A stretch of 64,000 bases of DNA from Epilithonimonas sp. JDS. GTDB lineage: Bacteria > Bacteroidota > Bacteroidia > Flavobacteriales > Weeksellaceae. The stretch spans positions 1-64,000 of the forward strand of contig NZ_JAJSAX010000010.1 in the NCBI RefSeq assembly GCF_021261315.1, in the 5' to 3' direction. Numbering within the stretch: position 1 is the stretch's first letter; the number at the start of each line of letters is the position of its first letter. Made by a program: the position numbers and the translations under genes. The notes below the pieces were generated by a model. It saw only the letters and a program-made list of their open reading frames with translations, had not been told where the DNA came from and made no database searches. Positions 2,020 to 16,096 of this stretch are shown here, one piece after another.

Positions 2020-3066
2020 TTATTTCTTGGGCTGAATGAAAACTTTCTCAGCCGGGAATTTTTCGATTTCGCCTTCTTTCAAACCAAAATTAGTAATGAC
2101 AACGTCTTTTGGATTTCCCGACAGCCATTCGCTCAAATCAATCGATTCATATTTTCCGCTGTTGAAACCAATCAGAATCCTACAAACCGTGTCGCCTATA
2201 TTTTTGATGTAATGTCCGGCTCCCATTGGAACATAACCCACATCTCCGGCACTGAACTGCTCTGTAACACAAGTAGATTCTGCAAGGAAAACTGACATCT
2301 CTGCTTGTCCTGAAATAAAATATTGCCATTCGTCCGCATTCGGATGCCAGTGCATTTCTCTTAAAGCGCCCGGCTGCAATTCCAAAATAGAACCCGACAT
2401 TGTACTGCTGATAGGGAATTCTTTACTCGTTACCAATCTTTGCAAACCTCCGCCTGGAACAATTCTCGGCTGTTGGGAATGCAAAGGATAACGGTGAAAA
2501 CTCGTTAATTCGATATCAGATTCATTCGGACGAGCTTCAGCAACGAAAGACATCTCGTCAGGAACAATTCCCGTTGCGAAGTAGGCTTCTTTTTGAGGTA
2601 AAGCCGCAACTTCTTCTAAAGTTAAATTTAAATTCTGAGCGACAATTTCAGGTGGTACAGAAGAAACAAAATCCGTCACGCTGAACGTATGGTCTTCAGA
2701 AAAATTACCGTTATCAAAAATCAAAATGAAATGACATTCCTCGGTTCCTGTTGCCTGAATCGAGTGACCGTAACCTTTTGGAAAATACCAAACATCGCCC
2801 GGCTCAAAATTGTCTGTATAGCTATGTCCGTCCGGATGAATAATCGTGGTACGAACCGTTCCCGAAATCACGTAAGCCCATTCTGCCGCGTTGGCGTGCC
2901 AGTGCAATTCTCTCATACTTCCCGGTTGCAGTCTCATAGAAACGCCTGCAATCCCAATAGATGCTGGGAAATCTTTTACAGAGGCGCCTCTTGTAGTTCC
3001 GCCGTCGTTGGTTCTTGGTTCTTTTTTCTCGAGTTCGTATCTGAAACTTAATGATGCAGTATTCAT
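2020..3066 (-). CDS. Bicupin, oxalate decarboxylase-like
   Basis: A 348-residue protein of two germin-like cupin domains. Metal ligands are complete in both: H55, H57, E62, H101 in domain 1 and H239, H241, E246, H285 in domain 2, the pattern of manganese-dependent oxalate decarboxylase OxdC. The active-site lid loop, SENST in Bacillus OxdC, reads SEDHT at residues 123-127, keeping the glutamate (E124) needed for decarboxylation but changing three neighbours. The substrate may therefore not be oxalate. No signal peptide is visible. It is the first gene of the four-gene operon behind the promoter at 3112-3180. Confidence 0.88.
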   Translation of the reverse strand: MNTASLSFRYELEKKEPRTNDGGTTRGASVKDFPASIGIAGVSMRLQPGSMRELHWHANAAEWAYVISGTVRTTIIHPDGHSYTDNFEPGDVWYFPKGYGHSIQATGTEECHFILIFDNGNFSEDHTFSVTDFVSSVPPEIVAQNLNLTLEEVAALPQKEAYFATGIVPDEMSFVAEARPNESDIELTSFHRYPLHSQQPRIVPGGGLQRLVTSKEFPISSTMSGSILELQPGALREMHWHPNADEWQYFISGQAEMSVFLAESTCVTEQFSAGDVGYVPMGAGHYIKNIGDTVCRILIGFNSGKYESIDLSEWLSGNPKDVVITNFGLKEGEIEKFPAEKVFIQPKK

Positions 3067-3111: not shown

Positions 3112-3180
3112 TGTAAAGCTACCTCGGAATCACAAGATTTTGAAGTGCTTTTCGGTGAATGGGCAAAATGAGTCGGTGGG
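3112..3180 (-). promoter_or_regulatory. Shared AraC-type promoter, copy 1 (bicupin operon)
   Basis: Read on the minus strand, a direct repeat CCCACCGAC (3172-3180) and TTCACCGAA (3151-3159) with a 21-bp period precedes a -7-like box TAGCTTTACA (3112-3121). The 39-nt offset between the repeat and the TGTAAAG end of the box is the same in front of the genes at 6099 and 10827. The layout resembles a class II activator site of an AraC-family protein. Confidence 0.75.
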
Positions 3181-3290
3181 AATTTGAAAGGAGTAGTTGG
3201 TATCTTTGGAATAAAGAAAATAGAGGAGAGATAATAGACTTTCAATTCGAATTTTATCGATTGAGATTCCTAACGACGTCCATTTTAATT

Positions 3291-3326
3291 AATAAAAAAT
3301 CCTTCTCAATTTAACTTGGGAAGGAT
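3291..3326 (-). terminator. Rho-independent terminator
   Basis: Stem ATCCTTCTCAA (3299-3309) and TTGGGAAGGAT (3316-3326), with one mismatch and a 6-nt loop, followed on the minus strand by a T-run. It ends the operon whose last gene stops at 3350. Confidence 0.8.
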
Positions 3327-3349
3327 GATTATTTAATTGATAAAAGAAT

Positions 3350-4027
3350 TTATTGAAAGGATAAAGATTTTTTTCTTGTAGGTATCGTATAGTAAGCCGA
3401 AATCACAATACCAGGAATCAACATTGAAACCAATCCGAAACGAGCAGAAATCAAAGCGCCAAAGACACATCCAATCAAAAAACCTGTTAGAAGTAGCAAT
3501 GATTTCTTTAGTTCGATTAATTTTTCAAGAGTATGTTGTGTAGAGATGTAAGAGAAAAAATCAAGGATGGCTTTGGTCACATTGCCTGTCATTACCGTCG
3601 TCGGGCCAAAAGCAGAATTGGCGTATAAACGGGTTACCGTATTCTGGATTCCCATCGAAAAGACAATCAGCATCAGCATAGAATGATACATAAATCCTGT
3701 TGCAATATGATTTTGTTTTAATAAAAAAGCAATACAACCTGCAACAATCAAAAATATACCGATAGATGCAAATATTCCTTTTTCATTTTTATAAAGGCTA
3801 TCCATTTTTCTGGTCAAGATGACTGCCATTATGAAAACGGGAAAGCTGGCAAGATTGCTAAAATCACGCAATTGCGGGTGGTTCGATAATTTGTACGCAA
3901 AAACCACAAAATTCCCTGTGATATGGGCAGAGAATAATCCATCTGCAACCGTAAAAGTGCTTGTATCGACAAAACCTGCACTGAAAGCCATAATCAGGGA
4001 CGAATAGAAGATAGCATCTCTTTTCAT
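3350..4027 (-). CDS. DUF1275 (YoaK-like) membrane protein, second copy
   Basis: A 225-residue polytopic membrane protein of the DUF1275 family, with FSAGFVDTSTF near residues 15-25 and HITGNFVVFA near 35-44 matching the family's two conserved loops. It is clearly diverged from the copy at 1293-1994. It is the last gene of an operon with a quinone oxidoreductase, a lipocalin-like protein and an SRPBCC protein, and is followed by a good terminator. The function is unknown. Its repeated pairing with redox and electrophile-defence genes suggests a related membrane role. Confidence 0.88.
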   Translation of the reverse strand: MKRDAIFYSSLIMAFSAGFVDTSTFTVADGLFSAHITGNFVVFAYKLSNHPQLRDFSNLASFPVFIMAVILTRKMDSLYKNEKGIFASIGIFLIVAGCIAFLLKQNHIATGFMYHSMLMLIVFSMGIQNTVTRLYANSAFGPTTVMTGNVTKAILDFFSYISTQHTLEKLIELKKSLLLLTGFLIGCVFGALISARFGLVSMLIPGIVISAYYTIPTRKKSLSFQ

Positions 4028-4050
4028 TGGTTATCAGTTTTAAATTTTTG

Positions 4051-5019
4051 CTATCTTACAAGAATAATCTTTCCTGTATGTGAACCGTCTTCAAGCAATC
4101 GGTGAGCTTCCGCAGCTTCTGAGAAAGGAAATGTTTTGAAAATGACAGGTTTGAACTGTTTAGATTTAATTAAAGGCCAGACATTTTTCTGAATTTCTTT
4201 AGCCAATTGTTTTTTGAACTCATATTCACGGCTTCTCAAAGTACTTCCTGTAACGGTCAGGCGTTTGGTCATCACTTTCCAAATATCAAGGTCTACACGA
4301 CTGCCACTTACCGCATTGATGTGAACCAATCTCCCTTCAGGTTTTAAAATGTTGATGTTTTTGGCCAGATAATCACCGCCAATCATATCAAGAATGACGT
4401 CGACACCTTCATCTTGAAGTTCGGTTTCAAAATTCTGGGTCTTATAATTAATGTAAGAATCTGCGCCGAGTTCAAGGCATTTTTTGCCTTTTTCGTCAGA
4501 ACCGACTGTGACAATGACGGTTGAACCCAATGCGTGCGCAATCTGAATTCCCGTGATTCCAATTCCGCTGTTTCCGCCGTGAAGCAAAAGGGTTTCTCCA
4601 GGTTGAAGATTTCCTCTCTGAAAGACATTAGACCAAACGGTAAAGACTGTTTCCGGTAAGCTTGCCGCCTCAGCAAAACTTAAATCTGCAGGAATGGGTA
4701 AACATTGACCTTCTCTCACGCTAACATATTCTGCGTAACCGCCACCTGCCAACAATGCACAGACTTTGTCGCCAACGGTAAAATCTACGACATCAGGTCC
4801 GCATTTTACAATGGTTCCGGCAACTTCCAATCCTGGAATTTCGGCGGAAGCTCCTTCTGGTGCAGGATAATTTCCTTCACGCTGAAAAACATCGGAACGG
4901 TTGAGCCCCGCTGCTTTCACTTCGATTAAGACCTCGTCTCCGGATATTTCGGGAGTAGGGTATTCCTGTAATTCCAATACTTCAGGACCTCCAGGTTTTG
5001 TAATAACGATTGCTTTCAT
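4051..5019 (-). CDS. Zinc-free NAD(P)H:quinone oxidoreductase (PIG3/zeta-crystallin type)
   Basis: A 322-residue medium-chain dehydrogenase/reductase. The N-terminal GroES-like fold carries AAGLNRSDVFQREG near 36-49, and the Rossmann motif is HGGNSGIGITG near 147-157. Catalytic-zinc cysteine and histidine ligands are missing, as expected for quinone reductases of this branch, which reduce quinones or enones with NADPH. It sits 27 nt downstream of the lipocalin-like gene and 23 nt upstream of a DUF1275 gene. With the dioxygenases at 11-13 kb it supports quinone detoxification as the island's theme. Confidence 0.9.
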   Translation of the reverse strand: MKAIVITKPGGPEVLELQEYPTPEISGDEVLIEVKAAGLNRSDVFQREGNYPAPEGASAEIPGLEVAGTIVKCGPDVVDFTVGDKVCALLAGGGYAEYVSVREGQCLPIPADLSFAEAASLPETVFTVWSNVFQRGNLQPGETLLLHGGNSGIGITGIQIAHALGSTVIVTVGSDEKGKKCLELGADSYINYKTQNFETELQDEGVDVILDMIGGDYLAKNINILKPEGRLVHINAVSGSRVDLDIWKVMTKRLTVTGSTLRSREYEFKKQLAKEIQKNVWPLIKSKQFKPVIFKTFPFSEAAEAHRLLEDGSHTGKIILVR

Positions 5020-5046
5020 TTTTTTAAATTTTAATATCAGATTCTT

Positions 5047-5490
5047 TCAAACTCTCCTCCAGGTCAATTGATGGGTCACCAATCGTGAATTGCTGGTGAA
5101 TGGTTTCTCACTTTCAAGATGCAGAAAACCATCTTTAAAGATAACGATTCTATTCTGCGTTTGCCCCGTCCAGTTGGGAAAAAGTGAGATGTACATCGTG
5201 TGACTCACCAACTGTTTTTCATCATCCGTTTTGAATGGTCCCGAATACGCAAGATAGGTTGAGCCTTCCTGTGTATATTCTTCCGGCGTGGCATTGGTCC
5301 AATGTTCCTGATGAAAGTTTTTCCGGTTCGTATCCATAATTTGTGCCGACATATAACCGTCGGGATTATACATAATCAGCCCTTTCGGATTTTCACCCAT
5401 CGGATGGGTAATTTCTCCACCGTATACAGGAACTTCGATGAGCTCTACCAAAGTCCAGGTTCCTACAAGTTTTTCAAAGAGTGTTTCCAT
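5047..5490 (-). CDS. Lipocalin-like domain protein
   Basis: A 147-residue single-domain protein resembling the Lipocalin_5 family: it opens with KLVGTWTLVELIE, then GLIMYNPDGYMSAQIMD and later VSHTMYISLFPNWTG. No signal peptide is visible. Members are small beta-barrels of unknown ligand, often found beside oxidoreductases. It is gene two of the operon starting at 6099. A short hairpin (GCGTA/TACGC, about 5509-5524) lies in the 51-nt spacer upstream. A hydrophobic ligand is inferred only from the fold. Confidence 0.8.
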   Translation of the reverse strand: METLFEKLVGTWTLVELIEVPVYGGEITHPMGENPKGLIMYNPDGYMSAQIMDTNRKNFHQEHWTNATPEEYTQEGSTYLAYSGPFKTDDEKQLVSHTMYISLFPNWTGQTQNRIVIFKDGFLHLESEKPFTSNSRLVTHQLTWRRV

Positions 5491-5541
5491 AACTTTAAAA
5501 TGAAATGAGCGTACCGAGATACGCCCATTATTTTTTTTGAA

Positions 5542-6099
5542 TTAGAAAGGTTGGTTGTATTTTCCGGTCAACGCTTTGTTTTCGATACTTTTTGCAAAGT
5601 TGGGCGTTTCCTCGTGGTTATGGGCGTCGGAAGCGGCTTGTCTGGAAGCTGCGGCATCAGCTAGATTCACGTTGTGTTCTTTCAGATATTCGAACATTTC
5701 AGGAGTGGCAGTGGCGTGGATTTCGTTGGTGTACAATGTCGTGTTATCATCGATTTTTGTGGCTTTCAGTTCCCATAAAACCTGAACTTTGGTACGGCCG
5801 CCTTTGGTGATGGAATCTGAGATGGATAACATTCTGCAGTAATCCGGACGGTGTTCAACGGCAACATAATGCTGAACCATCAAAGCATCTCCGATTGTTT
5901 CGACGTTTAAAGAAACAGGTTCGCCATCATACGTGGTAGAAATGGCGGCTCCGATGTGCTGCGTGGAGCATCTTTGATATTCTGCATCGGGAAGGTTGAG
6001 TAGCCAATCTGCGATGTTAACTTTTTCGATTGGGGCATTGATAATCGCTGTAACTGTAGAGTGGGACAATGCATTTTCTGGTGTTTGAATAATTTCCAT
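5542..6099 (-). CDS. SRPBCC-like protein
   Basis: The protein is 185 residues if translation starts at the ATG at 6099. A longer in-frame extension to 6162 would run into the -7 box of the shared promoter at 6143-6211, so the shorter start is preferred. STVTAIINAPIEKVNIADWLLNLP is followed by beta strands and a helix, compatible with the START/Bet v1 (SRPBCC) fold. The C-terminal tail after about residue 145 is alanine-rich and polar. It is the first gene of a four-gene operon ending at 3350. The ligand is unknown. Confidence 0.75.
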   Translation of the reverse strand: MEIIQTPENALSHSTVTAIINAPIEKVNIADWLLNLPDAEYQRCSTQHIGAAISTTYDGEPVSLNVETIGDALMVQHYVAVEHRPDYCRMLSISDSITKGGRTKVQVLWELKATKIDDNTTLYTNEIHATATPEMFEYLKEHNVNLADAAASRQAASDAHNHEETPNFAKSIENKALTGKYNQPF

Positions 6100-6142
6100 A
6101 ATGTTTAGAATTTTAAATTGTTTGTATCTGTTAATTTGATGA

Positions 6143-6211
6143 TGTAAAGCTACATTCAACAAATTTCAAAATCAATTGATGTTCGATGAACAGGCGGAAA
6201 GTGTCGTTGAA
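6143..6211 (-). promoter_or_regulatory. Shared AraC-type promoter, copy 2 (SRPBCC operon)
   Basis: On the minus strand TTCAACGAC (6203-6211) and TTCATCGAA (6182-6190) form a 21-bp-period direct repeat, followed by the -7-like box TAGCTTTACA (6143-6152). Repeat period and offset equal those of the copies at 3112-3180 and 10870-10938. Confidence 0.75.
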
Positions 6212-6271
6212 TGGGTGTTGAAATTTATTAATGAATGGAAAGAAATAATAAACTTTAATATGAATCAAGTT

Positions 6272-6338
6272 TGTCATTCCGTAGGAATCTAAATTATTAT
6301 TTTAAATTCTGCATTGAGATTCCTACGGAATGACAAAA
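6272..6338. repeat. Inverted repeat family C, copy 1
   Basis: TTTGTCATTCCGTAGGAATCT and its reverse complement flank a loop of about 25 nt, giving a long hairpin. A second copy with a different loop is at 31511-31580. Both are intergenic. Confidence 0.85.
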
Positions 6339-6362
6339 CGTGAAAATTATCTTTATTATAAA

Positions 6363-6394
6363 CAAAAAAATCACTGCATTTTACAGTGATTTTT
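6363..6394 (-). terminator. Rho-independent terminator
   Basis: Perfect stem AAATCACTG (6368-6376) and CAGTGATTT (6384-6392), with a T-run on the minus strand. It follows the gene ending at 6423. Confidence 0.85.
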
Positions 6395-6422
6395 GGTTTT
6401 GAAAGATTTACATTAATTCAAA

Positions 6423-6974
6423 TTATTTATAAAGCCACTTCCTAATCAACTTCGTATAATTCGGCATCACCACATAAATCACCAGGAAAACCAGACAGCC
6501 TGTACTCACCAACGTATCAAAATACCGATTGGCAGGAATATTCATTAATCGTAAGGAGGGCAATAACAGCAATTGCATCAACAAGGATAAAGGATAAATG
6601 GCAGACCACGTCGCCAGATATTGTTTCCAACGAACCGGAACTTTGTTGTCTGTTTTTTCACCATAAAAAAGAAAATCGAGACCGGATTTGATTTCGTAAT
6701 TGTCTTCTTTTGTGAATAACGGATGGGCTTTGTCTATCAATTTTCTTCTGGTATCAGATTCCATCCAGTTTCGGAGATTTTCAATTGTATCAAAGCGGAT
6801 AATAACGGTGTAAACAAACGTCAGATTTGCAATCGGTCGAACGATTTGCCAGTCGATGAAACCTTTGGCACTTTTGGAAACGGGCAGAATTTCATCAAGC
6901 CATTTTTCATATTCGGATTGTTTACCGTCGAGAACGTGGTGCGTGATGACCACCGATGCGCCTTGTGTTTCCAT
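6423..6974 (-). CDS. Monooxygenase (ABM) domain fused to membrane helices
   Basis: A 183-residue protein. Residues 5-100 resemble an antibiotic biosynthesis monooxygenase ferredoxin-like domain (SVVITHHVLDGKQSEYEKWL, then FIDWQIVRP and a helix with FDTIENLRNWMES). After a linker there are hydrophobic segments near 125-142 and 152-170, so the C-terminus is anchored in the inner membrane. This domain pairing occurs in uncharacterised proteins. The gene stands alone with its own terminator. ABM domains can oxidise quinones or bind heme, but the substrate here is unknown. Confidence 0.8.
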   Translation of the reverse strand: METQGASVVITHHVLDGKQSEYEKWLDEILPVSKSAKGFIDWQIVRPIANLTFVYTVIIRFDTIENLRNWMESDTRRKLIDKAHPLFTKEDNYEIKSGLDFLFYGEKTDNKVPVRWKQYLATWSAIYPLSLLMQLLLLPSLRLMNIPANRYFDTLVSTGCLVFLVIYVVMPNYTKLIRKWLYK

Positions 6975-7006
6975 AATATGTTAGGTGTTAAAAAATCAAT
7001 AGGGAT

Positions 7007-7117
7007 GGGCTTTAGCCTGTTCATTACTGAAAAATAATAGGGTAGGCTTTAGCCGAAACTTAATCTAAATTGGCTAAAGCCGAGTTTATTTACATTTTAA
7101 TCATCGGGCTAAAGCCC
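7007..7117. repeat. Cluster of four GGCTTTAGCC hairpin units
   Basis: GGCTTTAGCC at 7008-7017 and 7045-7054, and its reverse complement GGCTAAAGCC at 7072-7081 and 7107-7116 (the last within GGGCTAAAGCCC). The four units can pair in several ways. They lie between the histidine kinase gene and the monooxygenase-like gene. Confidence 0.85.
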
Positions 7118-7135
7118 GACGCAATTGATGAGCCT

Positions 7136-9343
7136 TTAAAGCGATTTCATAAACAATTTAGTTTCGAAGAAAGATTTCAGCAAAATATCTTTTACTTCTT
7201 CCAAAGCTGTTTTTGATGCCGGATTTTCTTTGGTTGTTAATTCTAAAATGTCTAATTTTTCCTCTAATAAAGTTAGCAAACCCATTATCGCCACACTCGA
7301 TTTTAAATCGTGGGCTCTCAATTTCAGCAATTTAAAATCTTTATTTTCATAAGCCAGTTTCAGTTCCTGTAAATGAGTCGGGACATTATCTAAAAACTGC
7401 TGCGTCACGGTTCTTTCAAAATCTTTGTCGCCATTGCTGATAGACTTCAAATAACTAAGGTCGATGAACTCATAATGAGAAACGGTTTCTGTAGTTTTTA
7501 CTTCGGTTTTTCCGTTTTCTTTCAATCCGAAACTCGAGATTAATTTGAATAACTCTTCCTCTTTTATCGGTTTAGAAATGTATTCGTTCATTCCACGGCT
7601 CATACATCTTTCGCGTTCGCCGGCCAAAGCGTGTGCGGTCATTGCGATGATAGGCGTGTTCAGTTTAAGTTCGTCACGGATGGTTTGTGTGGCAACGTAA
7701 CCGTCCATTTGTGGCATCTGAATATCCATTAAAACCAAGTCACAGTCGTTGTTTCTGAGAAATTCTACAGCTTCCAGACCGTTGTTTGCGGTTTCAAAAT
7801 CGATATTCCATTGTGACAGAAGATGTTTCATCAGACTTTGGTTGATAGCGTTGTCATCCACGATTAACACTCGCAAAGGCGCGTTTGTTTTATCTTTAAA
7901 ATAATCGGTATCAACTTTCGGAACTACATTCAGCTGTTCTTTCGCAATTGTATAAGGAATGTAAAAATGAAAAGTCGTGCCTTTTCCCTGTTCGCTTATC
8001 ACTTCGATATCGCCGTTCTGCAACTGAATCAGACTTTTCACAATCGATAATCCAAGTCCGGTTCCGCCGTAATTTCGGGTCGTCGAATCTTCGCCTTGAT
8101 TGAATCTTTCAAAAACTTCAATGAGTTTTTCTTTATCAATTCCGATTCCGGTGTCAGAAACTTTAAAGCCAACAACAACTTCATTTTCGTTCTGTTGTTT
8201 ATTGTAAATTTCGATGTTAATGTTTCCCTGATGTGTAAATTTGATGGCATTTCCGATGAGGTTGACCAGAATCTGAGTCAGTCTTGTTGCGTCACCATTC
8301 AAAGTATCAGGAATGGACGAATCTATTTTACTGGAAATCGTTAATCCTTTTTCTTTGGCTCTTTCTACAAAAAATGTTTCGACTGAATTCACCAATCCAT
8401 TGATGCTGAATATGCCTTTGGTAATGCGCATCATTCCGGCTTCGATTTTCGATAAATCTAAAATATCATTGATAATCGCCATTAGATTTTCCCCCGAACG
8501 CTGAATGGACGAGACAAATTCTTTCGAAGTTTCATCCAAAGGTCTTTTCTGCAAAAGGTTCGTAAAGCCCAAAATTCCGCTCAGAGGCGTTCTGATTTCG
8601 TGACTCATATTGGCGAGGAAATTTTCTTTGGTTTGTGCAGCAACCGACGCTTTTTTCTCTGCAACATCCAATTCCTGAATCAACAATCGCTGACGTTTGA
8701 ACTGGCGAAGAATGTGATAACCGACAATGGAACCGCTTAAAATTAAAAGAATCAATAAGGAAATATCATATAATCTCGCTTTTTGTCCCATCGCTTCAGT
8801 CTCTTTGCTGAGGTCAACCATATGAAGTTTTCGGCTTTCGTAGATTTTTGCAGTGATGGAAGTGATTTCATTAGAGATTTTTCTGGCTCTCGGGTTGGCG
8901 ATGGAAGTGTTGTCGTCCATATTTCCAAGGGTGTGATAACGGAGCAGTAATTTGTCTTTCGTCTTTTTCTTTTCCATCGCAAGAACGCTCAATCTATGTA
9001 TCCACTTTTCTTCCACATCGTCTGAGTTATCTTTGGAAAGTGAATCGAGAAAGTTTTCTATCTGACTGATTTTTTGGTCGATTCCTTCGAGATGAGTGGT
9101 GTCGTTGGTGGCAATGGAAGCTCTGATTCTGCTTTCAACACCGAGAATATCACGGTCGATTTCACGCAGATGATTGCTGGAACGCAACTCGTTGAGAAGT
9201 CGGTTGTTATTTTGGATGAGCTCTTTGGTATTTTTAGCCGAATTGATTTGAACCGCTATCAACAGGAGAGAACCCGCAATAAATGTGAGGATGATGAAAT
9301 AACTGAACCGTCTGTTTCCCATTACTGAGGATATGTTTTTCAT
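7136..9343 (-). CDS. Hybrid sensor histidine kinase with receiver and HPt domains
   Basis: A 735-residue inner membrane kinase. Transmembrane helices lie near 13-32 and 193-211 and enclose a mostly helical, CHASE3-like extracytoplasmic sensor. Then come HisKA with phospho-acceptor H248 (NMSHEIRTPLSG), HATPase with N-box 361-370, DTGIGI 397-402 and GGTGLGL 426-432, a receiver with D540 and K591-P, and a C-terminal HPt with H678 (RAHDLKSSVAIMG). All phosphorelay residues are present. The LytTR response regulator 257 nt upstream on the same strand is the likely final acceptor. The stimulus is unknown. Confidence 0.93.
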   Translation of the reverse strand: MKNISSVMGNRRFSYFIILTFIAGSLLLIAVQINSAKNTKELIQNNNRLLNELRSSNHLREIDRDILGVESRIRASIATNDTTHLEGIDQKISQIENFLDSLSKDNSDDVEEKWIHRLSVLAMEKKKTKDKLLLRYHTLGNMDDNTSIANPRARKISNEITSITAKIYESRKLHMVDLSKETEAMGQKARLYDISLLILLILSGSIVGYHILRQFKRQRLLIQELDVAEKKASVAAQTKENFLANMSHEIRTPLSGILGFTNLLQKRPLDETSKEFVSSIQRSGENLMAIINDILDLSKIEAGMMRITKGIFSINGLVNSVETFFVERAKEKGLTISSKIDSSIPDTLNGDATRLTQILVNLIGNAIKFTHQGNINIEIYNKQQNENEVVVGFKVSDTGIGIDKEKLIEVFERFNQGEDSTTRNYGGTGLGLSIVKSLIQLQNGDIEVISEQGKGTTFHFYIPYTIAKEQLNVVPKVDTDYFKDKTNAPLRVLIVDDNAINQSLMKHLLSQWNIDFETANNGLEAVEFLRNNDCDLVLMDIQMPQMDGYVATQTIRDELKLNTPIIAMTAHALAGERERCMSRGMNEYISKPIKEEELFKLISSFGLKENGKTEVKTTETVSHYEFIDLSYLKSISNGDKDFERTVTQQFLDNVPTHLQELKLAYENKDFKLLKLRAHDLKSSVAIMGLLTLLEEKLDILELTTKENPASKTALEEVKDILLKSFFETKLFMKSL

Positions 9344-9390
9344 AAGTGTCTGTACTTATTTTGAATTGTTGAAAACGACTTGGAATTGTA

Positions 9391-9451
9391 AAACCACTCC
9401 GTCAAAAATTCTATGATTTTTCGCCACCCCTCCAGAGGAGGGGAATTTTTA
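9391..9451 (-). repeat. Dispersed repeat family B, copy 1
   Basis: On the minus strand it reads CCCCTCCTCTGGAGGGGTGG, then GCGAAAAATC and TTTTTGACGGAGTGG. The same layout occurs at 14985-15112. It sits next to family A copy 3 in the kinase-regulator spacer. Confidence 0.8.
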
Positions 9452-9478
9452 CGCTCTGATTGGAACGTTGAATCTCTC

Positions 9479-9583
9479 GCAGCCCGACTTGAGCGGAAAT
9501 CCTTTTTTGCTTGTTCTTTAGTTCTATTTAGACTGAAATCGTCTGCAAAAAAGATTGGGAGCGGAAGGCGGAAATAGCTGCCC
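9479..9583 (-). repeat. Dispersed repeat family A, copy 3 (divergent core)
   Basis: It carries the two conserved ends of family A (GCAGCCCGACTTGAG and GGCGGAAATAGCTGCCC). The core is unlike copies 1 and 2 but again folds: TTTTTTGC pairs with GCAAAAAA. Confidence 0.75.
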
Positions 9584-9600
9584 AAATCACTCACAAATAA

Positions 9601-10296
9601 TTAGAAAACATTCATTCTCGTGTTGAGAGCCTTTCTGTAAGCATCTGCGACGGGAATGAATTTTCCGTTTATCATAATTCCACCGTCCTGAAGGGTGTCT
9701 ATTTTGCCAACAGAAACGATGTAAGACCGATGAACTCTGATGAAATGGTCTTTCGGAAGACGTTCTTCCGCTGTTTTCATCTTGCCGTGGATGGCGAACA
9801 TTTTTTCTCTTGTGTAAAATTTCACATAATCGCCCATTGCCTCCGCATAAAAAATATCGTCGAGCTTCAAACGCCTTGTGATATTGGAATCTCTTACAAA
9901 AAGGAACTCATCTTTGGTGACTTCCACATCTTCTTTTCTGCTTTCCAGAATCGATTGCGCTTTGCTGACGGCCTGTAAAAATCTCGCTGGCATCACGGGT
10001 TTCAGGATGTAATCTGCGATATTCAATTCGAAAGCTTCGAGTGCGTAATCTTTGTTGGATGAGGTGAAAATGATGATAATGTCTTTCCCTGAAAGGTTTT
10101 TAGTAAGTTCGATTCCGGTCATTTCCGGCATTTCGATATCCAAAAATATCAAATCTACTTGATTGTTCTGCAAATGGTTGTAAGCTTCAATAGCGTTGGA
10201 ATATTCATTGACAATCGTCAGATTCGGAACTTGTTTTGCCAAATGCGCCAAAGTGGTTCTTGCGATATCGTTGTCATCAACAATTAAAGCTTTCAT
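9601..10296 (-). CDS. LytTR-family response regulator
   Basis: A 231-residue cytoplasmic DNA-binding regulator. An N-terminal receiver (1-120) carries acidic D8/D9, phospho-acceptor D53 in IFLDIEMP, and K98-P. The C-terminal LytTR domain (about 130-231) carries FIRVHRSYIVS near 187-197 and ends in the usual PVADAYRKAL region. It precedes the hybrid kinase at 7136-9343 on the same strand, with two dispersed repeats in the spacer. A functional pair is likely but unproven. Targets cannot be named from the sequence. Confidence 0.92.
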   Translation of the reverse strand: MKALIVDDNDIARTTLAHLAKQVPNLTIVNEYSNAIEAYNHLQNNQVDLIFLDIEMPEMTGIELTKNLSGKDIIIIFTSSNKDYALEAFELNIADYILKPVMPARFLQAVSKAQSILESRKEDVEVTKDEFLFVRDSNITRRLKLDDIFYAEAMGDYVKFYTREKMFAIHGKMKTAEERLPKDHFIRVHRSYIVSVGKIDTLQDGGIMINGKFIPVADAYRKALNTRMNVF

Positions 10297-10350
10297 AGGG
10301 ATAGTTTATTATGGTTGACACAAATATAATTATTCCTTTTCTTATTTTCT

Positions 10351-10827
10351 TTAATTTCTGAAGTAAGAGCGTATCATCCAAGCCATTTCTTCGTGCGTTT
10401 CTATCAGGCTTGTGATGAAGTCGCTGGAGCCGTAATCTTTGTATTTTTCAGCAAAAGGCGTCACATTTCCTCTTAAAAAATCGATAATACTTTCGTGGTC
10501 TTTTAGTAAATCTTTCATATAGCCTAATCCATCATTGGTTCTGTCGCTGTACTCTGTAAGATGCGTTAATTCTAAATAAGCTTTCATAGTTGCAGGTGCG
10601 TAATGTCCGATTTTTCTTAGACGTTCTGCAACGCTGTCAATCAACTCGTCCAGCTGTTTGTACTGCTCTTCAAAGAAAATATGATTGGCGTGGAAATTAT
10701 CGCCGGTCACGTTCCAGTGGGCATTTCTTGTTTTGATGTAAAGTACCGTTTCGTCAGCTAAAAGTTTTGCCAATTGTTCTGCAACAGCTTCTGTGTTTTG
10801 CTCTGTAAGTCCGATGTTTGTTTTCAT
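10351..10827 (-). CDS. dps: Dps-family ferritin-like DNA protection protein
   Basis: A 158-residue dodecameric mini-ferritin that oxidises and stores iron using hydrogen peroxide and shields DNA. The inter-subunit ferroxidase ligands H37, H49, D64 and E68 occur at the spacing of E. coli Dps (H51, H63, D78, E82). The N-terminal tail is short and has few lysines, so DNA binding may be weak. It is a single gene behind the shared promoter at 10870-10938, which it has in common with the peroxiredoxin/bicupin operon and the quinone reductase operon. This fits oxidant-induced expression. Confidence 0.94.
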   Translation of the reverse strand: MKTNIGLTEQNTEAVAEQLAKLLADETVLYIKTRNAHWNVTGDNFHANHIFFEEQYKQLDELIDSVAERLRKIGHYAPATMKAYLELTHLTEYSDRTNDGLGYMKDLLKDHESIIDFLRGNVTPFAEKYKDYGSSDFITSLIETHEEMAWMIRSYFRN

Positions 10828-10869
10828 AATTTTAAGATTTAAGTAGGAGCGGTATTGCTCTTTTTCTGA

Positions 10870-10938
10870 TGTAAAGTTCAGAATGAATCTTAAAAAAGTG
10901 ATGAATTTTTCGGTGAACGGGCAAAATTGGTCGTTGAA
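10870..10938 (-). promoter_or_regulatory. Shared AraC-type promoter, copy 3 (dps)
   Basis: On the minus strand TTCAACGAC (10930-10938) and TTCACCGAA (10909-10917) repeat with a 21-bp period. The -7-like box GAACTTTACA (10870-10879) lies at the same 39-nt offset as in the other two copies. Confidence 0.75.
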
Positions 10939-10990: not shown

Positions 10991-11050
10991 ATTTATTAAA
11001 CTAGTTAAATGTACAGCATTTTCCATCGTCCTAAATTTGTCCTAACAAAA
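10991..11050 (+). promoter_or_regulatory. Shared 60-bp promoter, copy 1 (dioxygenase operon)
   Basis: 53 of 60 bases match 15139-15198. It contains a palindromic core AACTAGTT (10999-11006) and the Bacteroidota -7 box TAAATTTG (11032-11039). A clear -33 TTTG is missing, and the palindrome sits near -43 from the expected start site, as for an activator. Confidence 0.8.
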
Positions 11051-11066
11051 TTAAAGAACAAACAAA

Positions 11067-11999
11067 ATGGAAAATAGAATTTTAGGATTGCACCACATTA
11101 CAGCAATCGCAAATAATGCAAAAAGAAACTTAGATTTTTATACTCAGGTTTTAGGTTTAAGATTAGTAAAGAAAACGGTGAACTTCGATGACCCGGGAAC
11201 TTATCACTTTTATTTCGGGAACAAAACCGGAACTCCGGGAACAATTTTGACATTTTTTCCTTGGGAAGGAATTGGGCAGGGAACCAACGGAACAGGTTTG
11301 GCAACACACATCGGATATTCTGTTCCAAGAGGAAGTTTAGGATTCTGGAAAAACAGATTACAGCAATTCAATGTCAATGCTGAAGAAGGTGAAATATTTG
11401 GTGAAAAACTGATTTCATTCAAAGACCCGGACGGACTTCAATTACAGTTCATCGAATCATCAACTCCGGATGACAGAAAAATCTGGACGACCGATGACAT
11501 CAAGGATGAGAACGGTTTGAAAGGTTTTCACAACGTTACTTTAAGCCTGAAAAAAGCTGACCCAACCATCAAGGTCCTGACTGATATTCTTGGATATGAC
11601 CTTCAAAAACAAGAAGGCGAAAGATTCCGTTTTGCGACAGGTGCAATAGAAACTGCAAACCTTATCGATATTATTGAAAATGATAAAATTCCTTTCGGTA
11701 GAAATGCCGCCGGAACCAATCACCATATCGCTTTCAGAGTATCAAATGATGACATCTTGATGGAATATCGTGAAAAAGTAATGTCTGCGGGATTAAGCAT
11801 CACACCGAAAATCGACAGAGACTATTTCTACTCTTTATACTTCCGTGAACCGGGTGGTGTTTTATTCGAAATCGCAACAGACAATCCAGGTTTTACTGTA
11901 GACGAACCTTTGAGTGAATTGGGACAAAATTTAAAACTTCCGAAACAATACGAAGCAATGCGTTCTCAAGTAGAAGAAGCGTTACCTAAATTATCATAG
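11067..11999 (+). CDS. Ring-cleaving dioxygenase (VOC superfamily, MhqA/MhqO-like)
   Basis: A 310-residue extradiol-type enzyme made of two glyoxalase/bleomycin-fold halves. The first opens with LGLHHITAIANNAKRNLDFY, the second with GFHNVTLSL, and later carries the metal-ligand regions NHHIAF and GGVLFEIATD. This branch opens hydroquinone-like rings with Fe(II), as for Bacillus MhqO and Sphingobium LinE. The gene is first in an operon with a paralogue (12070) and an esterase (13025), the same partnership as mhqO and mhqD in Bacillus. The enzyme is cytoplasmic. The exact quinol substrate is inferred. Confidence 0.9.
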   Translation: MENRILGLHHITAIANNAKRNLDFYTQVLGLRLVKKTVNFDDPGTYHFYFGNKTGTPGTILTFFPWEGIGQGTNGTGLATHIGYSVPRGSLGFWKNRLQQFNVNAEEGEIFGEKLISFKDPDGLQLQFIESSTPDDRKIWTTDDIKDENGLKGFHNVTLSLKKADPTIKVLTDILGYDLQKQEGERFRFATGAIETANLIDIIENDKIPFGRNAAGTNHHIAFRVSNDDILMEYREKVMSAGLSITPKIDRDYFYSLYFREPGGVLFEIATDNPGFTVDEPLSELGQNLKLPKQYEAMRSQVEEALPKLS

Positions 12000-12069
12000 T
12001 TCACTCTTTTTAATTTATATAATTAAAAAATTAGTAATCATCAACTTTAAACTTTAAATCAAAACAATT

Positions 12070-13023
12070 ATGGCACTCATCACAGGACTTCACCACGTCA
12101 CCGCCATCACAGGCGACGCACAGGAAAATATAGACTTTTACACCGGAGTTTTAGGACTTCGATTAATTAAGAAAACCGTCAACTTCGATAATTCTGAAGT
12201 ATATCATTTTTATTTCGGGGACGAGTTTGGAACGCCGGGAACGATTATGACGACTTTTCCGTACGGAAAAGGTCTGGCGAATGGAAGACACGGCAAAGGA
12301 ATGCTGAATACAACGGCTTTTTCCATTTCAATGGATGCTCTGGATTATTGGCTGGAAAGGCTGGATAAATTCAATATTCCTTACAAACAGGCACAGCAAA
12401 GGTTTTCGGGTGAAGTTTTTATTTATCTGGAAGATTTTGACGGGCTAGGTTTGGAGTTGGTTTTCAATGAAAAAGATGACAGAAAAGGGTATGGTAACGG
12501 ATTGATTCCACAAGATTTTGCCATCAAAGGTTTCCATCACGTTGAGATTTGGGTAGATGCTTACGAAAGAACTGCCGCACTTTTGACCACACAAATGGAC
12601 CACCAGTTAATTGCTGAAAGCTCTGACAGATTCAGATTTGGAACGGAAGATAAACCCGGGAAATATGTCGATTTGCTTTGTACGCCCAATTCTCTGAAAG
12701 GTTTGGCTGGAAGAGGAACGGTGCATCACGTTGCTTTTGCGACTCCCGATATGAAATCACAATTGGAAATGATTGAAAGACTGAACAAATTTGGTTTGCA
12801 GCATACTGAAGTTAAGGATAGAAAATACTTCACTTCCATTTATTTCAAAGAACCTGGCGGAGTTTTGTTTGAAATTGCGACTTCAGGGCCTGGTTTTGAT
12901 ATTGATGAAGAATTGGCATCTATTGGTGAAGATTTGATGCTGCCGGAACAGTTTGAAGAAAACAGAGGCCACTTAATAGATGTTCTTCCAAAAATTAATT
13001 ATCCAACAGAAAAATTTAAATAA
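12070..13023 (+). CDS. Ring-cleaving dioxygenase, second paralogue
   Basis: A 317-residue paralogue of the protein at 11067-11999, with the same two-half VOC layout: GLHHVTAITGDAQENIDFY, GFHHVEIW, VHHVAFAT and GGVLFEIATSGPGF. It follows the first copy after 70 nt and overlaps no gene; the esterase starts 1 nt after its stop codon. Two diverged copies side by side suggest different ring substrates rather than dosage, but this is inference. Iron ligands appear intact in both. Confidence 0.9.
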   Translation: MALITGLHHVTAITGDAQENIDFYTGVLGLRLIKKTVNFDNSEVYHFYFGDEFGTPGTIMTTFPYGKGLANGRHGKGMLNTTAFSISMDALDYWLERLDKFNIPYKQAQQRFSGEVFIYLEDFDGLGLELVFNEKDDRKGYGNGLIPQDFAIKGFHHVEIWVDAYERTAALLTTQMDHQLIAESSDRFRFGTEDKPGKYVDLLCTPNSLKGLAGRGTVHHVAFATPDMKSQLEMIERLNKFGLQHTEVKDRKYFTSIYFKEPGGVLFEIATSGPGFDIDEELASIGEDLMLPEQFEENRGHLIDVLPKINYPTEKFK

Positions 13024-13024
13024 A

Positions 13025-13645
13025 ATGAATCATACTTTAGATATAAAAACAAGCGGAAAATCATTGAATGAAGCTGAAAAAGTTTTGATAATGATTCACG
13101 GAAGAGGCGGAAGCGCACAGGATATTCTGAGCTTATCCCAACATTTGAATGTGGAAGATTATGCTTTATTGGCTCCACAGGCAACGAATGGAAGCTGGTA
13201 TCCATTGTCCTTCATTGCACCGGTTGAGCAAAACCAACCTTGGTTGTCATCAGCCCTCGAAACCGTTGGTAAAACTGTGGAAACGGTTTTGGATGCAGGA
13301 ATTAAGGCTGAAAATATTTACTTTTTCGGATTTTCCCAGGGTGCTTGTTTGACATTGGAATTTTTAGCAAGAAATGCACAGAAATTTGGTGGAGCAGTAG
13401 CCATAATCGGTGGTGTTATTGGAGAAAAAATCAACCGTGAAAATTACAAGGGCGATTTTGCACAAACCCCGATTTTACTGGGAACAAGCAATCCGGATTT
13501 CCACGTTCCGGTAGAAAGAGTTTACGCAACAGCGAATATTCTGAAAGAGATGAATGCCGATGTGACGGAGAAAGTCTATGCAAATTTCGGACATTCCATC
13601 AATCAGGAGGAAATGGAACTGGCAAATTCTATCGTTTTTAAATAG
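13025..13645 (+). CDS. Alpha/beta hydrolase, phospholipase/carboxylesterase family (MhqD/YtpA-like)
   Basis: A 206-residue serine hydrolase. The nucleophile elbow is GFSQGACL, the oxyanion region IHGRGGSAQD, and the late histidine is in NFGHSINQEE. The ATG at 13025, one base after the upstream stop, gives the family's usual length; an upstream in-frame extension would run through the end of the dioxygenase gene. Coupling of such a hydrolase to quinol dioxygenases is known from Bacillus (mhqD/mhqO), so it may hydrolyse ring-fission products or glutathione-like conjugates. The substrate is unproven. Confidence 0.88.
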   Translation: MNHTLDIKTSGKSLNEAEKVLIMIHGRGGSAQDILSLSQHLNVEDYALLAPQATNGSWYPLSFIAPVEQNQPWLSSALETVGKTVETVLDAGIKAENIYFFGFSQGACLTLEFLARNAQKFGGAVAIIGGVIGEKINRENYKGDFAQTPILLGTSNPDFHVPVERVYATANILKEMNADVTEKVYANFGHSINQEEMELANSIVFK

Positions 13646-13687
13646 ATTAAAGATTTTACACATTAGATATCAGACGTCAGATTTAAA

Positions 13688-14045
13688 ATGAAATAATATA
13701 GAAATTACTAAAATATTCAGTGACGAAAATGGAGAATCTCATTTCGAAGACATCGAAATTCCGTTAATCAATCAGGGAGAAATTGGATATTTATCCGAAG
13801 ATATTTATGTTAAAAAACTTCAATTCAGAAAAGTTTCTGCTGATTACGACTACGATTTTCATCACGCTCCGCAAAAGCAATATATTGTACTTTTGAATGG
13901 CGGTGTGGAGATTGAAACTTCTCTTGGTGAAATCAGACAATTTCAAACTGGCGAAATCCTTTTGGTTGAAGATATTTCGGGAAAAGGCCACAAAACCAGG
14001 AATCTTGAAAAGAAAGAGCGGACATCGTTATTTATTCATATTTAA
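13688..14045 (+). pseudogene. Cupin-domain gene with a one-base frameshift just after the start codon
   Basis: A clean open frame runs from 13704 to the stop at 14043-14045 and encodes a small cupin-like protein (FHHAPQKQYIVLLNGGVEIET, GEIRQFQTGEILLVEDISGKGH), but it has no in-frame ATG, GTG or TTG near its beginning. The ATG at 13688 is followed by AAA-TAA. Removing one A from the AAA run joins it perfectly to the frame (M-N-N-I-E-I-T-K) and gives a 118-residue protein. Either the gene is newly inactivated, or this is a sequencing error, or programmed slippage occurs. Confidence 0.75.
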
Positions 14046-14067
14046 AATTAATTAAACATAAACACTT

Positions 14068-14379
14068 ATGAATACATTAAACTTTTTGGTCATCGGAAAG
14101 AATCAGGAAATTCTTGAGACCTTAAAAAGAATTATCGAAAATAATGAAGGCTGGAAAGCAGAAATCGAGAACGATGAAACGGTCTGCTACGATTTTATTA
14201 AAGACAATCAGGTAGATATTGTGCTGTTGAGTTCCGGTTTGGATGAGGAGTTTGAAAATGATATTAAAATATTTTGCACAAACTTAGAGAAAGAAGTAAA
14301 GGTAATCGACCATTACGGCGGTGGAAGTGGACTGTTGAAGAATGAAGTTTACAGTCTTTTTCCTAATTTGCAGCCGTAA
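14068..14379 (+). CDS. Receiver-like protein lacking the phospho-acceptor aspartate
   Basis: A 103-residue protein that follows the receiver-domain pattern: beta strand LNFLVIGKN, helix EILETLKRIIENNEGW, strand AEIENDE, helix, then strand DIVLLSSGLDEE. At the end of that third core strand, where a receiver has Asp, there is Ser, and the N-terminal acidic pair is replaced by GKN. It therefore cannot be phosphorylated in the normal way. It lies 9 nt upstream of a Crp-family gene and is probably cotranscribed. A protein-protein signalling role is inferred. Confidence 0.6.
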   Translation: MNTLNFLVIGKNQEILETLKRIIENNEGWKAEIENDETVCYDFIKDNQVDIVLLSSGLDEEFENDIKIFCTNLEKEVKVIDHYGGGSGLLKNEVYSLFPNLQP

Positions 14380-14388
14380 ACTTAATTT

Positions 14389-14973
14389 ATGTTTGAAAAT
14401 ATCATCAAGAACGTTACCCGTTTTATCAGTCTGAGCAGTGAAGAGGAGAAAATATTCACCGATTTATTGGTCTGTGAAACCATTCCGAAGAAAACAATTT
14501 TGTTGCGGGAAGGTGAAATCTGCCAGTTTGAAGGCTTCATTCACAAAGGTTGTTTGAGGGCTTATTACCTTGATGATAATGGCTTTGAAGTGACGATTTT
14601 GTTTGCCATAGAAGATTGGTGGATAAGCGATATCGCCTCGTTTCAGGACCAGAAACCTTCCAATTTATATATTGAAACAATTGAAGATTCGGAGATTTTT
14701 ATGCTGAATCCGACCACCAAAGAAAAATTGTTGCAGGAAATTCCGAAATTCGAAAGGGTCTTCAGAATGTTGGTTCAGAGAAATCTCTTTACCCTTCAAA
14801 ACCGATTGGTGAATACCATTTCCAAAAGCGCATCAGACCGATATCTGGAATTTATCAAAGTATATCCTACGATTCCGCAGCGGGTTGCGCAATATTATAT
14901 CGCTTCTTATCTGGGCGTTTCTAAAGAATTTGTAAGTACGATTAGGAAGCGTTTGGCGACGAAAGACAAGTAA
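14389..14973 (+). CDS. Crp/Fnr-family transcriptional regulator
   Basis: A 194-residue regulator. The cyclic-nucleotide-binding-like beta barrel covers about 20-120 (IPKKTILLREGEICQFEGFI), followed by a long dimerisation helix and a C-terminal helix-turn-helix (YYIASYLGVSKEFVSTIRKRL). There is no N-terminal iron-sulfur cysteine set. The recognition helix differs from the two regulators at 24.5-25.8 kb, so different targets are expected. The pirin gene with the shared promoter lies downstream, so this protein is one candidate to bind it. Confidence 0.88.
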   Translation: MFENIIKNVTRFISLSSEEEKIFTDLLVCETIPKKTILLREGEICQFEGFIHKGCLRAYYLDDNGFEVTILFAIEDWWISDIASFQDQKPSNLYIETIEDSEIFMLNPTTKEKLLQEIPKFERVFRMLVQRNLFTLQNRLVNTISKSASDRYLEFIKVYPTIPQRVAQYYIASYLGVSKEFVSTIRKRLATKDK

Positions 14974-14984
14974 TAATTACACAA

Positions 14985-15112
14985 AAATATTCCCTCCACT
15001 GGAGGGGTGGCGAAAATTCAAAGAATTTTTGACGGGGTGGTTTATATATAGTGTGTAAACTACCCGCCTTTTTGTTTCACAAAAATCCACCCCTTCAGAG
15101 AAGGGGAATTTA
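14985..15112. repeat. Dispersed repeat family B, copy 2 (paired units)
   Basis: CCCTCCACTGGAGGGGTGG with GCGAAAATTC and TTTTTGACGGGGTGG matches 9391-9451. It is followed by an inverted relative ending CCACCCCTTCAGAGAAGGGG, so the whole can fold back on itself. Confidence 0.8.
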
Positions 15113-15138
15113 GCTTACTATTTTTTTGCTTTAAATGT

Positions 15139-15198
15139 ATTTATTAAACTAGTTAAATGCACAGCAATTTCCATCACCATAAATTTGTCCTATCAATA
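15139..15198 (+). promoter_or_regulatory. Shared 60-bp promoter, copy 2 (pirin gene)
   Basis: 53 of 60 bases match the promoter at 10991-11050, including the AACTAGTT palindrome and the -7 box TAAATTTG (15180-15187). The pirin start codon lies 34 nt after the -7 box. Confidence 0.8.
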
Positions 15199-15220
15199 AC
15201 GAATAAATAATAAAACAGAT

Positions 15221-16096
15221 ATGGACAGAAAAGATTTTTTAAAGAAAGGATTACTCGGAACAGGAATGTTCGTAGCAACCGCATCATTGGGAAATACAAT
15301 GAAAAATGAGATTGACGAAATCGAACCTTTGGAACCAATCGGATACAATCATTTACCGAATACAGATTCAAAAATCAAAGACAATTCTGTGATTCACAAA
15401 GCAGATTCCAGAGGGAAGGCAGACCACGGTTGGTTGGTGAGCAATCATACCTTCAGTTTTGCGAATTATCACAATCCGGAAAGAATGCATTTCGGTGTAT
15501 TAAGAGTGTTGAATGATGATAAAGTGGAGGCGGGACGAGGCTTCGGAACGCACCCCCACGATAATATGGAGATTATCAGCATACCGTTGGAAGGTGATTT
15601 GGAGCACAAAGACAGTATGGGAAATTCGGCGATTATCAAGAGTGGAGACATTCAGGTGATGAGTGCCGGAACCGGACTTATGCATAGCGAATTCAATAAA
15701 AATAATGACAGTTTGGTGAAGTTTCTGCAAATCTGGGTGTATCCAAACAAAAGAAACGTGAAACCGCGATATGACCAGATTACTTTAGATAAAACAAAAA
15801 GTCAGAATCAATTCCAGCAGATTCTTTCTCCTAATTCGGATGACGAAGGAGTTTGGATTCATCAAGATGCTTGGTTTCACTTAGGAAACTTCGAAAATAA
15901 TGTTGAAACCAATTACCAAATCAAGAAAAAGGGAAATGGTGTATATGCATTTATCTTAAAAGGAAGCGCGGAAATCGAAGGACAAAAAGTGGAAACAAGA
16001 GATGGTTTTGGCGTTTGGGATATTTCCGATTTGAACGTTAAATCAACTTCAGAAGGTAGTGAAATTTTATTGATGGAAGTTCCAATGACGATGTAG
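15221..16096 (+). CDS. Pirin-family bicupin with a Tat-like leader
   Basis: A 291-residue protein. The N-terminal leader DRKDFLKKGLLGTGMFVATA resembles a twin-arginine signal with Lys in the second position. The pirin core begins near 65 (SRGKADHGWLVSNHTFSFANY) and keeps the metal-site pattern FGTHPHDNMEIIS and TGLMHSEFN. Some pirins oxidise quercetin and others act as redox-sensing cofactors. The leader suggests a periplasmic form, unusual for pirins, which are normally cytosolic. It shares its promoter with the ring-cleaving dioxygenase operon. Confidence 0.88.
   Translation: MDRKDFLKKGLLGTGMFVATASLGNTMKNEIDEIEPLEPIGYNHLPNTDSKIKDNSVIHKADSRGKADHGWLVSNHTFSFANYHNPERMHFGVLRVLNDDKVEAGRGFGTHPHDNMEIISIPLEGDLEHKDSMGNSAIIKSGDIQVMSAGTGLMHSEFNKNNDSLVKFLQIWVYPNKRNVKPRYDQITLDKTKSQNQFQQILSPNSDDEGVWIHQDAWFHLGNFENNVETNYQIKKKGNGVYAFILKGSAEIEGQKVETRDGFGVWDISDLNVKSTSEGSEILLMEVPMTM

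Follow-up and report, generated by a model that had tools for sequence, protein, structure and literature searches.

We analyzed a 64-kb stretch of the genome of Epilithonimonas sp. JDS (contig NZ_JAJSAX010000010.1, positions 1 to 64,000; referred to as the window) in which three predicted operons are each preceded by the same pair of direct repeats. We consider it very likely that these repeats are the operators of a LytTR response regulator encoded in the same cluster (9601-10296), and that a hybrid-kinase phosphorelay acting through this regulator switches on all three operons. The system appears to be a LytTR two-component regulon, which is a known kind, and is unusual in its conserved spacer core and clear mobility. 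The operators, promoter boxes, and genes of the system all lie on the minus strand.

Three operators share one promoter design

A first-pass annotation of the window had described a direct repeat with a 21-bp period, TTCAnCGAm-N12-TTCAyCGAA, in front of the bicupin, SRPBCC/quinone-reductase, and dps operons. All three operators are present. Operator 1 (3151-3180), upstream of the bicupin operon, scores 48.0 bits in a 30-column matrix and consists of a distal copy (3172-3180; CCCACCGAC), the core TTTTGCC, and a proximal copy (3151-3159; TTCACCGAA); its 2 mismatches in the 30-bp pattern both fall within the distal copy. Operator 2 (6182-6211; TTCAACGAC-N12-TTCATCGAA; 42.3 bits) precedes the SRPBCC/quinone-reductase operon, and operator 3 (10909-10938; TTCAACGAC-N12-TTCACCGAA; 47.1 bits) precedes dps and the regulator and kinase genes. 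Both match the annotated repeat with zero mismatches. The distance of 39 nt that had been reported between the proximal copy and TGTAAAG (start to start) is exact at all three promoters, where TGTAAAG starts at 3112, 6143, and 10870. While the repeats themselves are real, the annotated motif was understated, as the spacer also holds a conserved TTTYGCC and the full unit is 30 bp long.

The -7-like boxes are located at 3114-3121 (TAGCTTTA; 29 bp past the operator) for the bicupin operon, at 6145-6152 (TAGCTTTA) for the second operon, and at 10872-10879 (GAACTTTA) for dps. When the -7 box is placed at -12 to -5 (PMC9723704), transcription is predicted to start at an A in each case (3109, 6140, and 10867), giving predicted leaders of 40-43 nt ahead of the start codons at 3066, 6099, and 10827.

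The loose repeat pattern alone is weak evidence because it yields 4 matches in the window versus 1.36 expected (up to 3 mismatches) and 49 in the whole genome versus 23 for a reversed control (up to 2 mismatches). With the 30-column matrix, which was built from other genomes, nowhere else in the window scored 0 or higher, and ten mononucleotide shuffles peaked at 3.4. The significance of the operators derives from other genomes, the loose pattern being only mildly significant in the window by itself. Within the window's own genome, the 28-bp pattern (up to 3 mismatches) occurs at three sites, all in the window, and the reversed control gave zero. Because these are the only sites genome-wide, the regulon is local in this genome, and we rejected the idea of a dispersed regulon. 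The first-pass annotation had named the lack of a genome-wide excess in front of genes as grounds for refutation; the search did return three sites but no dispersed set, and that wording has to be fitted to a local regulon.

Spacing between operator and promoter box is fixed across related loci

We scanned contigs with the protein encoded at 9601-10296 as the query and searched the best 79 loci of a longer list with the 30-bp consensus (up to 4 mismatches), leaving the promoter box out of the search. This approach identified 114 sites at 45 loci, which belong to Chryseobacterium, Epilithonimonas, Flavobacterium, Pedobacter, Sphingobacterium, and Dyadobacter. The conserved unit at the 45 loci is TTCAnCGAnnnnTTTYGCCYRTTCAyCGAA (30 bp).

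A [TGC]AnnTTT[AG] box begins exactly 29 bp after the site in 112 of the 114 cases; the remaining offsets between 20 and 49 yielded a single box in total. The two sites without the 29-bp box are at position 10715 of locus L061, between the regulator and kinase genes, and at 15491 of locus L060, which carries TAACTTCA. Mean information per column is 1.44 bits for the motif, 0.24 for the spacer between operator and box, and 1.12 for columns 60-76. The spacer is thus fixed in length and nearly free in sequence, since it holds so little information per column yet stays at 29 bp. The earlier proposal of one shared activator-type promoter design and one regulon is supported. The fixed spacing bears on the possibility that the repeats reflect inherited promoter similarity, for example, through duplicated promoters, with no specific regulator. 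The region is common to related loci through descent or transfer, as that explanation requires. However, the spacer kept its length while its sequence was nearly unconserved, and operons relocated within genomes still carry the site. We consider inherited similarity extremely improbable.

All 110 unique sites have GCC in columns 17-19, in part because the search consensus itself contains GCC. Column 72, the predicted start, is A in 97% of the unique sites and is preceded by C or T in 89%. The -7 box of the Bacteroidota sigma-A promoter has the consensus TAnnTTTG (PMC9723704). TAnnTTT is present in the box described here, with a first base other than T at 41 of 43 dps sites; the final base deviates from the consensus G, being A in 99% of unique sites, and next come a conserved C and a YA(G) start. 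A matrix made from the sites of the loci found nothing at 8 bits or above across 359 kb of sequence from loci whose regulators are distant, whereas the training sites score 27-51.

The cluster encodes a LytTR regulator and a hybrid kinase

The proposed regulator of the operators contains a REC domain (PF00072, 3.2e-22) and a LytTR domain (PF04397, 2.7e-19). FhRhHRS is a motif of LytTR response regulators (PMC4227749); it is represented here by FIRVHRS, and residues F185, R187, H189, and S191 are invariant in 19 aligned sequences. An AlphaFold2 model of the regulator had a mean predicted local distance difference test (pLDDT) score of 86.5 and a predicted template modeling (pTM) score of 0.53, and its best structural match by E-value was full-length ComE. 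Identity with BtsR was rejected, as the score for this NCBIfam equivalog was 119.8 bits against a cut-off of 246. The proposed cognate sensor is a hybrid histidine kinase (7136-9343) with HisKA, HATPase, REC, and HPt domains; its sensor part matches no Pfam family at E 0.001. Across the 45 loci, dps and the kinase gene are the only further genes found in every one (the next commonest is in 38), and other regulator genes lack wide conservation there.

LytTR operators are 9-bp direct repeats 10-13 bp apart (PMC11347149), and published sites are mostly 12 bp apart and upstream of the promoter (PMC11347149, PMC6193735). The sites in the window have this architecture; they are assigned to the regulator by co-occurrence. 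The operator lies upstream of the -35/-33 region, at approximately -71 to -42.

The first-pass annotation had instead attributed the repeats to an AraC-family activator, on the basis of their period. A direct-repeat period of approximately 21 bp is present but does not discriminate, as LytTR sites have the same period, and the sites track the LytTR regulator across genomes. In its fuller form, this alternative places an AraC-family activator elsewhere in the genome, each subunit of which would read TTCAnCGA and, roughly one helical turn away, TTTYGCC; the LytTR pair would then be a mere member of the regulon. Direct repeats with a spacing of about 21 bp are bound by AraC dimers as well, each subunit making two contacts. 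The position of TTTYGCC, 12 bp past the start of the first box, fits such a pair of contacts, and the window's genome has 49 HTH_18 matches. However, the second repeat lacks a TTTYGCC of its own, and the genome has no further site away from the cluster (3 mismatches allowed). A search for an AraC gene with the motif in its neighborhood had been suggested; the nearest AraC-like gene is about 48 kb away (C2:58845), and none is conserved in the loci. A profile built from 26 of the AraC genes in the window's genome detected AraC-like genes in 13 of the 45 loci, in no cluster common to many of them. Based on gene content and co-occurrence, we rejected AraC as the regulator: the AraC assignment is very probably wrong, and we would give the activator encoded elsewhere only a slight chance.

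Sites co-occur with the LytTR regulator across genomes

In the family (148 genomes), all 18 genomes with a regulator of at least 85% identity have at least two sites, at least one of which is close to the regulator gene. The 129 genomes without an ortholog yielded 9 scattered matches in 8 genomes, with 2-3 mismatches, versus 19 for the reversed pattern, and hence show no excess of the full motif, a further point against an AraC-family activator. The association between regulator and sites has a Fisher p of ~3e-17 (genome G040 omitted; kinship not corrected). G040, the remaining family genome, has a regulator homolog of 54% identity and one site. In the class (395 genomes), one to three sites each (up to 2 mismatches) were found in the three genomes whose regulator is at least 82% identical, and one further genome has a single 2-mismatch match. 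Three extra 3-mismatch matches on other contigs of regulator-bearing genomes, one in G020 and two in G135, were treated as chance; the match in G020 has no matrix score of at least 7 (L171).

G040 and the relocated operons carry most weight for the predicted assignment of sites to the regulator. In G040, the regulator and kinase genes are followed by a 38.8-bit site with the box variant CATCTTCA at 29 bp. This site precedes a gene for a 162-amino-acid protein without a significant Pfam match, the neighbors differ from those in the window, and only the regulator and kinase were matched on the 11-kb contig among 17 window proteins (E 0.001). The SRPBCC operon of G124 is on a different contig from the regulator, the SRPBCC and bicupin operons of G111 are ~110 kb from it, and a shortened bicupin gene of G321 is again on a different contig; site and box are kept in each. 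At such split operons, any action of the site would therefore depend on a regulator whose gene lies elsewhere in the genome.

The bicupin gene behind the operator in G321 (L196:6377-6988) is in pieces as well as shortened. It is apparently a decayed member that has kept its operator.

Several points weigh against the LytTR assignment. The loci were fetched with the regulator, so its presence in all 45 proves nothing, and co-occurrence is weaker than the numbers suggest because the parts spread together horizontally. The operator 9-mer is not close to the LytTR consensus, and the invariant GCC of the spacer has no counterpart in the published passages on LytTR sites that were consulted. The loose repeat without the core occurs with 0 mismatches in 21 of the 148 family genomes, comprising 12 with an ortholog, G040, and 8 without. 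The latter 8 have 9 such places versus 3 for the reversed control, a small excess; none of the places has TTTYGCC in position. The motif was not found (up to 2 mismatches) in eight class-level genomes with regulators of 42-53% identity. Finally, L062 is the one locus without a site among 46 with a regulator of at least 64% identity, and L064 (regulator 60%) has only a tentative site that lacks GCC. The operator code extends to closer orthologs, to Dyadobacter (65-67%), and to G040 (54%), and the 42-53% homologs searched lie outside it. Overall, the comparative evidence strongly supports the LytTR reading, in which the regulator would bind these sites.

The predicted targets are mostly redox and electrophile genes

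The predicted operon behind operator 1 encodes a bicupin (2020-3066), a DUF1275 protein (1293-1994), a peroxiredoxin (AhpC/TSA; 827-1288), and a DsbA/Thioredoxin_4-like protein (305-823), the last three identified by domain match. The bicupin is a member of the oxalate decarboxylase family with putative activity (TIGR03404, 358.4 bits; cut-off 254.2). Operator 2 precedes genes encoding a conserved 185-amino-acid protein (5542-6099), a lipocalin-like protein (Lipocalin_5 domain match; 5047-5490), a putative NAD(P)H quinone oxidoreductase of the PIG3 family (4051-5019; TIGR02824, 453.7 bits; cut-off 296.8), and a second DUF1275 protein (domain match; 3350-4027). Behind operator 3, the gene for a Dps-like ferritin-fold protein (10351-10827; PF00210, 82 bits; Dps models below the equivalog cut-off) is followed by the regulator and kinase genes and then by a gene for an ABM-domain-like protein (6423-6974; 21.9 bits, just under the 23.1 cut-off).

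The 185-amino-acid protein had been labeled SRPBCC. The protein is conserved, with 86-99% identity in 16 orthologs from several genera, but the label is unproven and the family not established: searches at E 0.001 matched neither a Pfam nor an NCBIfam family, the Pfam match at E 0.19 is insignificant, and the AlphaFold2 model is poor (mean pLDDT 41).

The peroxiredoxin, PIG3 quinone reductase, and DsbA-like assignments bear out the earlier suggestion that the targets are mostly redox and electrophile genes. Moreover, 26 of the 45 loci contain an Oxidored_FMN (Old Yellow Enzyme type) reductase gene, usually directly behind the kinase gene. Defense against oxidants or electrophiles is the best reading of the gene set. 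Alternatively, the same LytTR regulator could have another physiological role centered on the bicupin, Dps, and DUF1275 proteins, for example, in the handling of oxalate, acid, manganese, or iron. The bicupin scores above the cut-off of its oxalate decarboxylase subfamily, Dps stores iron, and the lack of a Pfam match in the kinase sensor part is compatible with such a signal, whereas the peroxiredoxin, quinone reductase, DsbA-like, and Oxidored_FMN proteins point to redox or electrophile stress. We regard the oxalate, acid, or metal role as possible but doubtful. Under the oxidant/electrophile reading, the DUF1275 proteins and the 185-amino-acid protein gain a hypothesis for their function, namely, redox or electrophile stress.

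The first-pass annotation had called the regulon undescribed, and we found no description of it, by title and abstract, among the papers listed in searches of an open-licence library.

An alpha/beta hydrolase gene often follows dsbA and is a partial member of the regulon: an offset test limited to 330 bp detected a site before 5 of 29 such genes. At L172:11472-11522 and L173:10300-10350, three successive 21-bp repeats precede an alpha/beta hydrolase gene, and the box stands at its normal distance from the pair nearest the promoter. These repeats recall the triple operators of RcoM and CoxC.

The locus appears to have moved between genera

Of the seven rpoB sequences compared, that of Epilithonimonas xixisoli is closest (98.3% at the protein level), and those of Chryseobacterium edaphi and C. 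rhizoplanae are at 92.6%. The locus DNA is 92-93% identical to that of C. edaphi over five blocks of 556-7864 bp, versus 84% for the rpoB region, and 87-90% identical to that of E. xixisoli in four long blocks, versus 94% for the rpoB region. Compared with proteins from Flavobacterium, Pedobacter, and Sphingobacterium, the regulator is 84-92% identical and the bicupin 88-91%, and rpoB only 73-77%. Transfer of the locus between genera is well supported by these comparisons. Transfer between orders is likely, as judged from sequence identities.

A model for the phosphorelay and its operator

Based on its domain order, the hybrid kinase would sense a stress and relay phosphate first within itself, by way of its REC and HPt domains, and then to the regulator. 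A dimer of the phosphorylated regulator would next occupy both 9-bp repeats, located on one face of the DNA at approximately -50 to -42 and -71 to -63, and may also read the conserved TTTYGCC between them. Once bound, it would activate rather than repress, recruiting RNA polymerase to the -7-like box TAnCTTTACA, which has A in place of the consensus G and is probably weak alone. Three operons would be switched on: dps-regulator-kinase with its downstream genes, forming a positive feedback loop; the SRPBCC/lipocalin/quinone reductase/DUF1275 operon; and the bicupin/DUF1275/peroxiredoxin/DsbA operon.

Tentatively, the locus might be viewed as a portable stress island. A kinase-LytTR phosphorelay would have spread across genera and orders of Bacteroidota together with its own three-part operator, in which two 9-bp repeats and an invariant GCC core are all read by one LytTR domain, while the distance to the promoter stayed fixed. 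The island would be dedicated to defense against quinones and phenolics, or the oxidative burst, beside plants and fungi. The system would be a clean case of a transferable signaling unit because the regulon is small, occupies a single place in the genome, and has passed between genera. To our knowledge, few two-component operators have been assigned in Bacteroidota. Here, regulator, operator, and gene set have been matched to one another by sequence alone, with predictions at the level of single bases, and the conserved GCC in the LytTR spacer leads to a prediction on how the LytTR fold reads DNA.

Diverged systems and neighboring features

Among loci with more diverged systems, no site was found at a 7-bit threshold in L062 and L067-L069 or at a 6-bit threshold in L192 and L194. 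L071 and L195 gave scores of 9.4 and 12.9 bits, respectively, with no TAnnTTTR box at 29 bp, and L193 scored 10.3 bits, TACATTTG lying at 28 bp. The tentative site of L064 is the pair TTCAACGAT-N12-TTCAACGAT, with TACTTTTG at 29 bp, followed by a reading frame of ~50 codons.

Weaker motif-like sites of 10-28 bits lie between the regulator and kinase genes at L060:10716, L061:10715, L169:783, and L193:8806. By eye, TA boxes are present 28-30 bp past these sites (TACATTTG in L193, TACCTTGT in L169, and TATTTTGT in L060 and L061), some of which resemble a described TAnnTTGY box (PMC9723704). These sites possibly provide separate control of the kinase. In the window, the gap between the regulator and kinase genes (9344-9600; 257 bp) is longer than in some relatives and contains CCCGACTTGAGCGGAAATCC, which occurs once in the window; it is possibly an inserted element.

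Divergent from dps, the window contains two genes of the Glyoxalase/dioxygenase superfamily and one for an MhqD-like esterase (below cut-off) at 11067-13645, followed by genes for a cyclic nucleotide (cNMP)-binding regulator of the Crp/Fnr type and a pirin at 14389-16096. A TAAATTTG box near 11031 suggests that these divergent genes have their own promoter. Their ortholog clusters (11067-16096) occur in only 3 of the 45 loci, and the Crp/Fnr-type gene at 14389 was accordingly rejected as the regulator of the operators.

Comparison with known systems

The enzymes encoded at the locus overlap in kind with those of the MhqR-type quinone and electrophile regulons of Firmicutes, and genes for MhqO-like and MhqD-like proteins adjoin the locus in the window. 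The latter genes lack an operator of the design described here and are found in 3 of the 45 loci. MhqR is a MarR-type repressor, unlike the window regulator.

LytTR two-component activators of the AgrA, ComE, and PlnC type are among the closest known systems. They have in common with the window regulator the REC and LytTR domains, the FhRhHRS motif, and a ComE-like fold, and their operators are likewise pairs of 9-bp direct repeats with 12 bp between them, placed ahead of the promoter. As here, the regulator lies within its own regulon. In contrast, the window operator differs in repeat sequence and in its conserved TTTYGCC spacer, the kinase is of the hybrid type and contains REC and HPt domains, the promoter has a Bacteroidota -7-like box, and the targets are redox and stress genes rather than bacteriocin or virulence genes.

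The LytTR operators of RcoM1 and CoxC (TTCNNGCA and TTNNNGCN, respectively) resemble those in the window in the TTC start of the half-site and the two-turn period. They contain three repeats at two-turn intervals, whereas the typical site of the window regulator has two; the sites in L172 and L173 also look triple. RcoM and CoxC are one-component gas sensors (PMC11347149), while the window regulator belongs to a two-component system. The LytTR Regulatory Systems (LRS) HdrRM and BrsRM similarly use 9-bp repeats with a 12-bp spacer at a fixed place upstream of the promoter (PMC6193735). An LRS includes a membrane inhibitor protein, where the window system has a kinase and a receiver. Positive autoregulation, which is described for LRS (PMC6193735), is predicted for the window regulator too.

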